Shown here: piece after piece, positions 9,783 through 12,483 of the stretch
Position numbering within the stretch: the stretch's first letter is position 1
Layout: every line of letters begins with the position of its first letter
From: an uncultured Spirochaetaceae bacterium
GTDB lineage: Bacteria; Spirochaetota; Spirochaetia; Sphaerochaetales; Sphaerochaetaceae
Assembly: GCA_944389085.1 (NCBI GenBank)
Contig: CALXLB010000100.1
Coordinates: 1-42,143 of the forward strand
Length of the DNA: 42,143 nucleotides
Direction: 5' to 3'
Position numbers and translations under genes: made by a program
The notes under the pieces: model-generated
The model's database searches: none
The model's input: the letters and a program-made list of their open reading frames with translations, nothing else
Told to the model about the DNA's origin: nothing

Positions 9783-10862
9783 ATGTTAACAGCGGAAGTG
9801 ATAAAGAAAGCACCTAAAGTCGAGCTCCATGAGCATCTTGATGGATCGCTAAGGCCAGAGACCATTCTGAGTCTGGCTGAGAAAAAAGGCATAAAACTGC
9901 CAGCAGACACTCCTCAGGAGCTGGCGCAATGGTTTTCAAAAGGTTCAGAAGAACGTTCTCTGACTCTCTATCTCAAAGCCTTTGATATCACTACAGCACT
10001 GATGCAGGACAGGGAAAGCCTCAAGCGCATCGCAAAAGAGGAAATCGAGGATCTCGCTGCAGATGGAGTTGTATATGCTGAAATACGTTTTGCTCCTGTG
10101 CTTCACACACGAGAGGGAATGACAATGGAACAGGTTGTCGCTGCTGTCCTTGATGGTCTTAATGAGGGAAGGATGGAAACAGGAATGGAATTCGGCCTGA
10201 TTCTCTCTGCCATGAGGGATCAGTCCCCTGATGTATCGCTGAGGACAGCTGAGCTTGCTGTCGCCTTCTCCGACAGAGGCGTAGTCGGCTTCGATCTGGC
10301 AGGGGATGAATCTGGAAACCCGGCCAAGAGACATCTCAAAGCATTCGAGTTCATCAGAGCCCAGAACTTCAGCATCACCATACATGCAGGTGAGGCATTC
10401 GGGCTGGAATCGATCTGGCAGGCAATCCAGATCTGCGGTGCTCACAGAATCGGACATGGAACAAGACTTACTGATGATATGAGTGTGGAAAATGGCAGGA
10501 TTGTAAGAATGGGAAGCCTTGCAGGTTTTGTCAAAGACAAGAGAATTCCATTGGAAATGTGCATAACCAGCAATATCGGGACTGGAGCTGCAGATAATTA
10601 CAATACCCATCCTTTCCCAATATTCTTCCGGAATGGATTCAGAGTCTTTCTCTGTACAGACAACAGACTCATGAGCAATACAACACTCACCAATGAAATG
10701 GCAATCGCTGCCAGGGAATACGGCCTTAATCTGAATGATCTGGAGAAAATCACGCTCAATGCCGCAAAGAGCGCCTTCATTCATTATGACAAGAGACTCC
10801 GGATCATTTACGATATCATCAAGCCGGGATATAAAGCACTGCGAGAGGAGCTGGGGTTATAA
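9783..10862 (+). CDS. add: Adenosine deaminase
   Basis: 359 residues. It converts (deoxy)adenosine to (deoxy)inosine and ammonia in purine salvage. Zn2+ ligands and the catalytic set are visible: HEHLDGSLRP near the N terminus (HxH), ITIHAGE (His and catalytic Glu), RIGHGTRL, and CTDNRLMSNTTLTNE with the metal-binding Asp. The length matches the family. The ATG at 9783 is preferred because GGAGAAAG lies at 9761-9768; the GTG at 9768 would sit inside that site. A TATAAT at 9695-9700 may be its -10. Its 3' end overlaps the convergent rhomboid gene by 6 bases. It links with the nucleoside transporter and phosphorylase at 30-36 kb, which would consume the inosine. Confidence 0.92.
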   Translation: MLTAEVIKKAPKVELHEHLDGSLRPETILSLAEKKGIKLPADTPQELAQWFSKGSEERSLTLYLKAFDITTALMQDRESLKRIAKEEIEDLAADGVVYAEIRFAPVLHTREGMTMEQVVAAVLDGLNEGRMETGMEFGLILSAMRDQSPDVSLRTAELAVAFSDRGVVGFDLAGDESGNPAKRHLKAFEFIRAQNFSITIHAGEAFGLESIWQAIQICGAHRIGHGTRLTDDMSVENGRIVRMGSLAGFVKDKRIPLEMCITSNIGTGAADNYNTHPFPIFFRNGFRVFLCTDNRLMSNTTLTNEMAIAAREYGLNLNDLEKITLNAAKSAFIHYDKRLRIIYDIIKPGYKALREELGL

Positions 10863-11480
10863 TCCCCACTCCCTCCATGGTCTGATCCTCATTCTGATCA
10901 AGCAGTACAGGAATGCAAAAAGCAATCCAAAAAGATGTGTCATATGGGCTATTGAACCACCATATGCACCAAGCTGGCTGAACAGTTCGATGAAGAAATA
11001 GACAAGAACAAGAACAGGTGCCCGCACAGGCAGAATACCGAAGACAAGGATTACTGCTCTTGGATAAAGAACGGAGAAAAGCAGCATTACAGCATATAAG
11101 GCTCCTGAGGCTCCGACAAGAATAGCAAACGTACCTGTCAGCAGATACGAGAAGAAACTTGCAATCCCGGAAAGAGTACCTGTCAGAAAGTAAAACAGAA
11201 GGAACTCCCGCGTTCCGATACTTCTTTCTACAGGTGGCCCGAAGATGAACAATCCAAGCATATTGGAAAACAGATGCCAGATTCCACCATGTACAAACAT
11301 GTAAGTCACAAACTGCCAGTAAGCATGTCCATAGATAACTGAAAACGGATTAAGTGCAAGATAACCAAATAAGCGCGGAAATAAATATGTTAAAGCAAAG
11401 ACAATACAGTTGAGTATGACCAGTGCTGTCGCAGCATTTGAATATGTATAACGGAATTCCCTGTTCAATATACTGTTCAT
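10857..11480 (-). CDS. Rhomboid-family intramembrane serine protease
   Basis: 207 residues with about six membrane segments. Diagnostic motifs are the L1 region and HGGIWHLFSNM segment, the nucleophile GASGA (GxSG), and the catalytic His in HMTHLFG. It cleaves membrane proteins within or near their transmembrane helices. The ATG at 11480 places the first helix (ATALVILNCIVFALTYL) where it belongs; a TTG 12 codons upstream is less likely. It is transcribed away from the sigma-54/sRNA region, and the palindrome at 11549 lies 69 bp before its start. Confidence 0.85.
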   Translation of the reverse strand: MNSILNREFRYTYSNAATALVILNCIVFALTYLFPRLFGYLALNPFSVIYGHAYWQFVTYMFVHGGIWHLFSNMLGLFIFGPPVERSIGTREFLLFYFLTGTLSGIASFFSYLLTGTFAILVGASGALYAVMLLFSVLYPRAVILVFGILPVRAPVLVLVYFFIELFSQLGAYGGSIAHMTHLFGLLFAFLYCLIRMRIRPWREWGL

Positions 11481-11548
11481 CCACAAAAAAATAAGCAGAG
11501 AGAAAAACAACGTCAATATCAGGCAGAATACATGGAAGATTCTGCACA

Positions 11549-11567
11549 GTGTGAAAAATTTTCACAC
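11549..11567. promoter_or_regulatory. Perfect 19-bp palindrome, candidate enhancer (UAS) for sigma-54 promoters
   Basis: GTGTGAAAAATTTTCACAC is a perfect palindrome around a central A. Its centre is about 89 bp upstream of the first sigma-54 start site, a usual distance for enhancer-binding protein sites. A half-site-like GTGTGAAAAA recurs at 11794-11803 inside the second unit. It could also serve the divergent rhomboid gene. Confidence 0.55.
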
Positions 11568-11619
11568 AGATTCCACCTGATAATGAATAAATCACATCAA
11601 TTAAAACAAATTAACAAAG

Positions 11620-11637
11620 TTGGCACGGTACTTGCAT
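11620..11637 (+). promoter_or_regulatory. Sigma-54 (-24/-12) promoter 1
   Basis: TTGGCACGGTACTTGCAT matches the RpoN consensus TTGGCACG-N4-TTGCA almost base for base. GG (11622-11623) and GC (11634-11635) are exactly 10 bp apart. The predicted start is near 11647. Confidence 0.85.
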
Positions 11638-11646
11638 AGAAAGTTT

Positions 11647-11721
11647 AGAGCAAACAGTTTTTTCAACAAACCTCCTTTTTTAGTGTATTCAAAGACGCCA
11701 AGCACAGGCGTCTTTGTTTTT
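11647..11721 (+). ncRNA. Putative sigma-54-dependent small RNA 1
   Basis: About 75 nt between the sigma-54 promoter and an intrinsic terminator (AAAGACGCC/GGCGTCTTT at 11691-11715, then GTTTTTC). There is no ribosome-binding site or coding frame. It begins AGAGCAAACAGTTTTTTCAA and carries an apparently unpaired AACCTCCTTTTTT, complementary to Shine-Dalgarno sequences (AAGGAGG). The same blocks recur in the second unit. I infer a trans-acting RNA that occludes ribosome-binding sites. Confidence 0.65.
11691..11721 (+). terminator. Terminator of small RNA 1
   Basis: AAAGACGCC and GGCGTCTTT form a 9-bp perfect stem with a 7-base loop, followed by GTTTTTC. Confidence 0.85.
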
Positions 11722-11729
11722 CTCCCACT

Positions 11730-11747
11730 TTGGCATGGAATATGCAA
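11730..11747 (+). promoter_or_regulatory. Sigma-54 (-24/-12) promoter 2
   Basis: TTGGCATGGAATATGCAA has GG (11732-11733) and GC (11744-11745) exactly 10 bp apart and the same frame as promoter 1. The -12 box is ATGCA rather than TTGCA, so it may be weaker. The predicted start is near 11757. It begins directly after the first terminator. Confidence 0.7.
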
Positions 11748-11756
11748 AAAGAATTA

Positions 11757-11857
11757 ATAACAGAGCAACAGTTTTTCATACCTCCTTTGCAACGTGTGAA
11801 AAAACTGCGCCGGGCAGTACTCTCCCACCCCATTATTACTGTCCGGCGTTTTCTTTA
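11757..11857 (+). ncRNA. Putative sigma-54-dependent small RNA 2
   Basis: About 100 nt with AGAGCAACAGTTTTTCATA followed by ACCTCCTTT, homologous to unit 1. Here CAGTTTTTCA pairs with TGAAAAAACTG and displays the anti-Shine-Dalgarno ACCTCCTTT in a 17-18-base loop. The terminator stem is 12 bp (CGCCGGGCAGTA/TACTGTCCGGCG, one G-U), and its 17-base loop is again C-rich (CTCTCCCACCCC). A TTTTCTTT tract follows. rlmE starts 27 bases later; read-through could feed it. Confidence 0.65.
11808..11857 (+). terminator. Terminator of small RNA 2
   Basis: A 12-bp stem at 11808-11819 and 11837-11848 with a C-rich 17-base loop, then TTTTCTTTA. Confidence 0.8.
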
Positions 11858-11883
11858 TCCCGAATTGCATGTAAACTCAAGCC

Positions 11884-12483
11884 ATGGCGAATTCAAGAAG
11901 AGATAAAGCAGACTCATATACACAGAAAGCCCACAAAGAGGGATATCCCGCCCGTTCGGTCTACAAGCTCGAGGAAATCAACGCATCCCATCGTCTGATA
12001 AAACCAGGAGATTCTGTACTCGATGTCGGGGCCGCCCCTGGTTCATGGACACTGTACACACACAGGGAACTCATCAAAGGAAATGGCAAGATAGTCTCTG
12101 TCGATCTCAATCCGCTCTCACTTGATCCGATACCGCCAACAGTTACCGAATTTACCGGCGATGCCTTCTCCAGGGAAATAAGGGCAAAGCTCGTAGAGGA
12201 AGGACCATACGACGCCATCATTTCCGATGCAGCCCCAATGACAACAGGCAACAGGATTGTCGACACATCCCGGTCAGAGTATCTTGCAGAGCAAGTCGTC
12301 CTCCTTGCCGAAGAGCAGCTGAAGCAGCATGGGAACATGGTAATAAAGATTTTTCAGGGCGGTGGAGAGCAGGAGATACTGAAAAAAATGAGAACCATCT
12401 TCCAGAAGGCTAAGGCTTTCAAGCCAAAAGCTTCCAGAGATGATTCATTCGAGATATTCCTGATCGGACTGGATAGAAAATAA
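11884..12483 (+). CDS. rlmE: 23S rRNA (uridine-2'-O)-methyltransferase RlmE/FtsJ
   Basis: 199 residues, the usual RlmE length (~209). It methylates the 2'-OH of U2552 in the A-loop of 23S rRNA late in 50S assembly, using SAM. The SAM-binding motif is VLDVGAAPGSW (residues 46-55). The catalytic K-D-K-E tetrad is visible as K28 (SVYKLEEI), D115 (ISDAAPM), K155 (MVIKIFQG) and E190 (FEIFLIG). No clear ribosome-binding site precedes the ATG. The gene sits directly behind the tandem small-RNA units and converges on the MscS gene. Confidence 0.92.
   Translation: MANSRRDKADSYTQKAHKEGYPARSVYKLEEINASHRLIKPGDSVLDVGAAPGSWTLYTHRELIKGNGKIVSVDLNPLSLDPIPPTVTEFTGDAFSREIRAKLVEEGPYDAIISDAAPMTTGNRIVDTSRSEYLAEQVVLLAEEQLKQHGNMVIKIFQGGGEQEILKKMRTIFQKAKAFKPKASRDDSFEIFLIGLDRK

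Follow-up and report, generated by a model that had tools for sequence, protein, structure and literature searches.

Tandem candidate small RNAs behind sigma-54 promoters in spirochaetes, with predicted pairing to the start regions of exported-protein mRNAs

A contig of an uncultured Spirochaetaceae bacterium (CALXLB010000100.1, assembly GCA_944389085.1; its 42,143 nucleotides, all of which were analysed, are referred to here as the window) carries two short consecutive units, A and B, each preceded by a -24/-12 element of the sigma-54 type and each containing a complement of the Shine-Dalgarno (SD) sequence. An initial annotation, made from the sequence alone, took them for a tandem pair of sigma-54-driven small RNAs (sRNAs), which raises the question of whether they are sRNA genes at all and, if so, which messenger RNAs (mRNAs) they would act upon. 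Comparative evidence, comprising sequence conservation, spacer variation, terminator covariation and a dyad situated upstream, supports such a pair, able to pair with SD regions, in a spirochaete, and on this basis the units are almost certainly real sRNA genes under sigma-54 control. We propose that they are probably best explained as an enhancer-gated and likely Hfq-independent brake on the synthesis of exported proteins under envelope stress.

Architecture of the locus

Both -24/-12 elements were read directly with their GG-N10-GC spacing, at 11620-11636 and 11730-11746, as were the blocks AGAGCAA(A)CAGTTTTT(T)CA and ACCTCCTTT that occur in both units. An intrinsic terminator closes each unit, formed in A by a stem at 11690-11716 and in B by arms at 11808-11819 and 11837-11848, each followed by a T-run. 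All of these had been recognised by the initial annotation, which overlooked a palindrome further upstream and a second conserved C-rich loop in unit B. The features of the locus, with positions in nucleotides (nt) of the window, are the following:

11547..11569, no strand assigned: palindrome CAGTGTGAAAAATTTTCACACAG, candidate enhancer site for an enhancer-binding protein (EBP), ahead of unit A, approximately 70 nt from its -24 element
11620..11636, + strand: -24/-12 (sigma-54) promoter of sRNA A, TTGGCACGGTACTTGCA, GG at 11622 and GC at 11634; TTGGCA and GC invariant in 43 aligned units
11647..11721, + strand: sRNA A, approximately 75 nt, with a predicted start 12 nt past the GC, at which the conserved block opens, and an end in the T-run
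11655..11678, + strand: pairing core of sRNA A, CAGTTTTTTCAACAAACCTCCTTT, complementary to SD, start codon and lysine codons; anti-SD at 11670-11678
11690..11721, + strand: intrinsic terminator of sRNA A, 10-bp stem with compensatory double changes in 4 pairs
11730..11746, + strand: -24/-12 (sigma-54) promoter of sRNA B, TTGGCATGGAATATGCA, GG at 11732 and GC at 11744; read directly and in the aligned units
11757..11856, + strand: sRNA B, approximately 100 nt, with a predicted start and an end in the T-run; predicted structure z -5.8
11769..11807, + strand: predicted hairpin of sRNA B with the anti-SD ACCTCCTTT (11780-11788) in its loop; stem largely invariant
11808..11856, + strand: intrinsic terminator of sRNA B, whose C-rich loop CTCTCCCACCCCA (11820-11832) is nearly invariant on a stem with covariation in 5 pairs

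At the sequence level each unit is therefore autonomous of the neighbouring gene, having its own promoter and Rho-independent terminator. The window has two copies of the block CAG-T5-CA-n-ACCTCCTTT, compared with none in 100 dinucleotide shuffles, and the pattern TTGGCAYNNNNNNTGC has only 12 sites in the 2.27-Mb genome, two of which are units A and B, versus three for the reversed pattern. The sigma-54 gene, rpoN, is present in the same genome.

Conservation and distribution of the units

Of the 35 further genomes drawn from the window's genus, 31 gave the region in a DNA search, often as two units. Across the 43 aligned units TTGGCA, the -12 GC and much of GAGC..AACAG..TTTTT..CCTCCTT show no or almost no variation, with CCTCCTT fully invariant; the spacer between the -12 element and +1 varies freely, and the conserved block opens approximately 12-15 nt past the GC, the expected start of a sigma-54 transcript. 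A sequence model of promoter plus core, run against 395 genomes of the class, found between one and four copies in 81 of the 92 that belong to the window's family (probably Sphaerochaetaceae), and also matched ten outside it. Homologues were read in three other families, namely f17 (four genomes), f4 (two tandem units) and f3, and retain the TTGGCA..GC promoter, TTTTTCATACCTCC and a terminator-like region, together with C-rich loops in f17 and f4; the out-of-family matches in genomes G218 and G065 lie outside the set read. Conservation of the promoter and the CCTCC block in relatives, named by the initial annotation as a point on which the sRNA interpretation could fail, was thus looked for and found. 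Matching named records, among the matches listed, belong to Spirochaetales, Spirochaetaceae or Sphaerochaetaceae, several being of rumen or gut origin.

Model matches in two other of the ten out-of-family genomes (G290 and G067) were ruled out as homologues, as they lie antisense to MKK-type genes. Tandem copy number rises to three or four in a genus with chromosomes of 3.2-3.6 Mb (four units at locus L238 of genome G282 and three at L239), with an enhancer-like element for each copy.

The reverse complement of the conserved block reads AAAGGAGGT..TGAAAAAACTG, which could be taken for the beginning of a minus-strand coding sequence (SD-ATG/TTG-AAAAAACTG) if it is not simply a chance resemblance. 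Since the T-run varies in length from 4 to 7, it would break any such frame; moreover, the SD-ATG spacing is 1 nt in B, and the promoter and terminator that are conserved belong to the plus strand. These frame and conservation patterns exclude a minus-strand reading frame, and the absence of the block from all 100 shuffles argues against chance, leaving either explanation hardly credible.

Predicted RNA structure

The 5' part of RNA A is predicted to be unstructured and is followed by the terminator, in which 4 of the 10 stem pairs show the compensatory changes. RNA B is predicted to form a hairpin displaying ACCUCCUUU in its loop, and its terminator hairpin has the loop CUCUCCCACCCCA, which hardly changes among relatives while the stem covaries; RNA A lacks this C-rich terminator-loop motif. 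The anti-SD loops originally described for both units are thus predicted for B, whereas the anti-SD of A appears single-stranded. As the stem of the anti-SD hairpin of B hardly varies, covariation neither proves nor disproves it. The covariation in B was obtained from a narrow alignment, the terminators being too divergent for RNAalifold in the wide one.

Complementarity to start regions

Reverse-complemented, the core UUUUUCA..ACCUCCU reads AGGAGGU..(A)UGAAAAA, a sequence made up of an SD, a start codon and lysine codons. When 84,980 genomes were scanned for the core pattern, the matches listed included 102 without a sigma-54 promoter, taken as chance matches in other bacteria; 58 of these were antisense to an SD and the start of an open reading frame (ORF), mostly of genes for MKKL-type signal peptides. 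The window's genome contains 19 genes with GGAGG-n-ATGAAAAA, versus none for the reversed pattern, and most of them encode a hydrophobic N-terminus.

Duplex energies were calculated for a sample of approximately 0.43 Mb of the window's genome (360 ORFs), which was not chosen for pairing and some contigs of which were picked because earlier matches had named them. For 49 genes classed heuristically as exported, the start regions paired much more strongly than those of 231 cytosolic genes, both with RNA A (-19.5 versus -13.9 kcal/mol, p 1e-9) and with RNA B (-19.8 versus -14.5 kcal/mol, p 1e-7). Over two genomes, the area under the curve (AUC) for separating exported from cytosolic start regions was 0.77, 0.73 and 0.79. 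The second genome, G282, belongs to a different genus and was analysed with its own RNA (AUC 0.79, p 1.4e-7).

Some pairing is seen with SD-rich genes whatever their class, and the two RNAs might be general SD decoys that mimic the 3' end of 16S ribosomal RNA (ACCUCCUUU) and damp translation of all mRNAs with a strong SD, whether or not the product is exported, with the U-run providing stability or chaperone binding. The sequence ACCTCCTTT is indeed a textbook anti-SD tail, its CCTCCTT does not vary, and a second C-rich loop exists. Such a decoy would not account for the retention of TTTTTCA together with CCTCC across families. Among genes matched for SD strength (SD of at least 5) the AUC was 0.80 and 0.79, compared with 0.65 for the 16S tail and 0.63 for RNA A with its U-run replaced; in G282 the 16S tail alone gave 0.58. 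Shuffles in which ACCTCCTTT was held fixed lost the discrimination, reaching the natural value in 0/60 (A), 0/60 (B) and 0/50 (G282) cases. Because these shuffles fall short in both genera, the flank of the anti-SD can be said to add a preference for exported-protein genes, and we consider a general decoy unlikely.

A second alternative is that the sRNAs have one or a few specific targets in each species, such as an outer-membrane protein or lipoprotein, the wider complementarity being a by-product. One dominant target is common among known sRNAs, and some start regions stand far out, e.g. those encoding MKKLVVV.. (-31 kcal/mol) and MRKMSIAF.. (-34 kcal/mol). The entire exported class is shifted, however, in two genera, and the core is retained across families, which makes so narrow a role rather improbable. 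The initial annotation had envisaged repression of many mRNAs through SD pairing; the pairing is upheld, but since the conserved core runs past the SD to the start codon and lysine codons, the predicted targets narrow to exported-protein mRNAs rather than mRNAs in general.

Upstream dyad and candidate activators

The palindrome upstream of unit A conforms to a dyad consensus, TGTGAAAA(A/T)TTTTCACA, found upstream of the units, and its 17-bp form TGTGAAAAATTTTCACA has a single perfect copy in the genome (pattern TGTGAAAANTTTTCACA). With this consensus, which was derived from the window, 51 of 87 homologous units were found to have a match of at least 14 of 17 positions in the 160 nt preceding them, compared with 0.35 expected from shuffles. 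In G282 a related element precedes each of the four tandem units.

Four clear EBPs are encoded in the window's genome, two with receiver, AAA+ and helix-turn-helix (HTH) domains, one PspF-like and one without an HTH. Other copies of the palindrome (contigs C32, C51 and C53) lie neither beside an sRNA-type sigma-54 promoter nor on contigs with EBP genes, and so do not single out an activator of the sRNAs; by elimination, the likeliest is one of the two NtrC-type response regulators. The PspF-like gene (L044, contig C97) has a pspA gene on either side, both with a separate -24/-12 site, and locus L045 (contig C25) encodes an EBP-like protein of 338 amino acids with an AAA+ domain, in which Pfam found no DNA-binding HTH.

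Elsewhere in the genome, sigma-54-like promoters lie ahead of the two pspA genes, of an hsp20 pair and of a sigma-70-family factor. Those of hsp20 and the sigma factor have in common a different palindrome, GGGTCA..TGACCC, seen upstream as GGGTCATAATGACCC and GGGTCATTTTGACCC (L048 and L050; contigs C2 and C32), which suggests a second EBP regulon and a cascade from sigma-54 to a sigma factor.

A search of 42 genomes, from the window's family and related ones, detected no canonical Hfq (PF17209); it was positive for its controls (Escherichia coli, Bacillus subtilis and others) and could miss a divergent Hfq. A divergent Hfq has reportedly been described in Borrelia. The action of the sRNAs is probably Hfq-independent.

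Proposed function

According to the model that we favour, an EBP bound to the TGTGAAAA(A/T)TTTTCACA dyad, most likely an NtrC-type response regulator, would open sigma-54 RNA polymerase, and transcription would yield trans-acting RNAs of approximately 75 and 100 nt. Their core UUUUUCA-n-ACCUCCU(UU) would pair with an SD and, on the far side of a small loop, with the start codon and lysine codons (AUGAAAAA), blocking 30S binding; in B the C-rich loop of the terminator hairpin may provide a second contact. Preferred targets would be mRNAs of exported and outer-membrane proteins, because an SD followed by AUG-AAA-AAA is typical of signal-peptide genes (MKK..). The likely role is to reduce how much exported protein has to be handled when the envelope or protein folding is under stress, given that the other recognised sigma-54 promoters serve pspA, hsp20 and a stress-type sigma factor. 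Judged from sequence comparison, it is very probable that the sRNAs act by covering start regions, and reasonably likely that exported-protein mRNAs form their main target class. More tentatively, they may constitute a class-wide brake on the secretome, gated by sigma-54 and an EBP and independent of Hfq, in which one RNA, antisense to SD, AUG and Lys-Lys, reads the whole class of signal-peptide mRNAs rather than single genes.

Several observations weigh against this model. Eleven genomes of the family carry rpoN and gave no model match, so the sRNA is not universal in the family; as rpoN is present in every family genome tested, its presence cannot separate genomes with the sRNA from those without. 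Internal structure in B, where the U-run is part of the stem, does not enter into the duplex energies, and the spacing of 2 nt between the pairing elements of B suits a typical start region less well than the 5 nt of A. Signal-peptide calls and start-site choice were heuristic, the latter favouring SDs, and the A-rich codons and stronger SDs of exported genes account for part of the preference.

A near-universal multicopy sRNA with a sigma-54 promoter offers a handle on both RpoN function and riboregulation in Sphaerochaetaceae. If the model is true, an sRNA would read the SD-AUG-Lys start common to a functional class of mRNAs, providing a simple relief of the export machinery under stress. 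Close relatives are culturable, which opens the function of the sRNA to experiment.

Genomic context

The units are flanked by two conserved neighbours:

10857..11516, - strand: rhomboid protease gene, conserved divergent neighbour (Pfam Rhomboid, 5e-29)
11884..12483, + strand: rlmE/ftsJ, 23S rRNA methyltransferase gene, conserved neighbour outside the sRNA unit (Pfam FtsJ, 1.5e-42)

The ancestral site of the sRNAs is between the divergent rhomboid gene and rlmE. With the locus upstream of rlmE in most genera examined, the units might be read as a cis-acting leader or attenuator of that gene. We rejected this reading, which is very improbable, on three grounds. Units occur away from rlmE (at L067, L077 and L172, and as extra copies); each ends in its own terminator, with up to four tandem units each having its own promoter; and rlmE appears to have start signals of its own. 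In relatives, a -35/-10-like pair, TTTGACC..TATAGACT (N16/17 spacing), lies past the terminator of B and ends 6-9 nt before the rlmE ATG, which suggests that rlmE is transcribed from a separate promoter and with hardly any leader.

In the window's genus rlmE seems to be nearly leaderless and devoid of an SD (11860-11890 and relatives). Its promoter element is less clear in the window itself than in relatives.

Comparison with known sRNA systems

No described family matches the units, as the initial annotation had supposed: Rfam returned nothing at gathering thresholds in the window and only chance matches at permissive settings, and neither an sRNA of Sphaerochaetaceae nor a paper on the present family was found in the literature searched. 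The best chance match was the LhrC model RF00616 (18.6 bits versus a cut-off of 110, E 1.7), and the Qrr covariance model gave no match up to E 10 in 11600-11880. The sRNAs thus appear to be related to neither LhrC nor Qrr.

Vibrio Qrr RNAs, to which the pair had originally been likened, are several homologous sRNAs whose sigma-54 promoters are driven by the NtrC-type EBP LuxO and which repress translation at ribosome-binding sites. The analogy holds, at the level of sequence, for the sigma-54 promoter on each of several homologous copies; Qrr RNAs differ in their dependence on Hfq, their role in quorum sensing, and their sequence and structure. LhrC1-5 of Listeria monocytogenes are multicopy sRNAs with CU-rich motifs in a loop, a single strand and the terminator loop; they are induced by envelope stress through a two-component system (LisR) and pair with the SD region of a surface-protein mRNA, Hfq being dispensable for lapB regulation (PMC4132741). 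The present sRNAs are likewise multicopy, with C-rich SD-binding motifs in loops that in B, but not in A, include the terminator loop. Given the copy number, the CU-rich loops and the lack of a need for Hfq, we judge LhrC to be a closer mechanistic analogue than Qrr, although it belongs to a Firmicute, is controlled by LisR and has a UCCC motif instead of UUUUUCA-n-ACCUCCU.

Cuckoo/CcsR/SmelA075-type RNAs of Alphaproteobacteria consist of repeated hairpins with CCUCCUCCC anti-SD loops, often in tandem and related to stress; CcsR1-4 are driven by RpoHI/RpoHII, share a transcript with a DUF1127 gene and undergo RNase E processing (PMC3927594, PMC10253847). The anti-SD loops and tandem repeats are similar to those described here, whereas each of the present units has its own sigma-54 promoter and terminator. 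Hairpin loops with CCUCCUCCC were not encountered in the units, in which one loop has the motif ACCUCCUUU and the terminator loop has CUCUCCCACCCC. As regards the DUF1127 association, the immediate neighbours, to which this comparison extends, are the rhomboid gene (-) and rlmE (+).

GlmY acts through GlmZ/RapZ and glmS and not by way of an anti-SD motif. Its expression in Enterobacteriaceae is sigma-54 dependent, and the GlmY/GlmZ system is tied to envelope precursors, according to work cited in PMC3162934. The present sRNAs resemble GlmY in their sigma-54 control and differ in possessing an anti-SD motif. RybB, MicA and VrrA have sigma-E promoters, occur in Gammaproteobacteria and use seeds that are not built on a general SD, AUG and lysine signature. 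All three are envelope-stress sRNAs that act at the 5' end of mRNAs for exported proteins, whose translation they repress (for VrrA, PMC2628432). The 5' ends of exported-protein mRNAs are also the predicted targets of the present sRNAs. Set against these systems, the sRNAs belong to a known kind of regulator, trans-acting and SD-blocking; what is new is the family, its control by sigma-54 and a dyad in spirochaetes, and its class-directed core.
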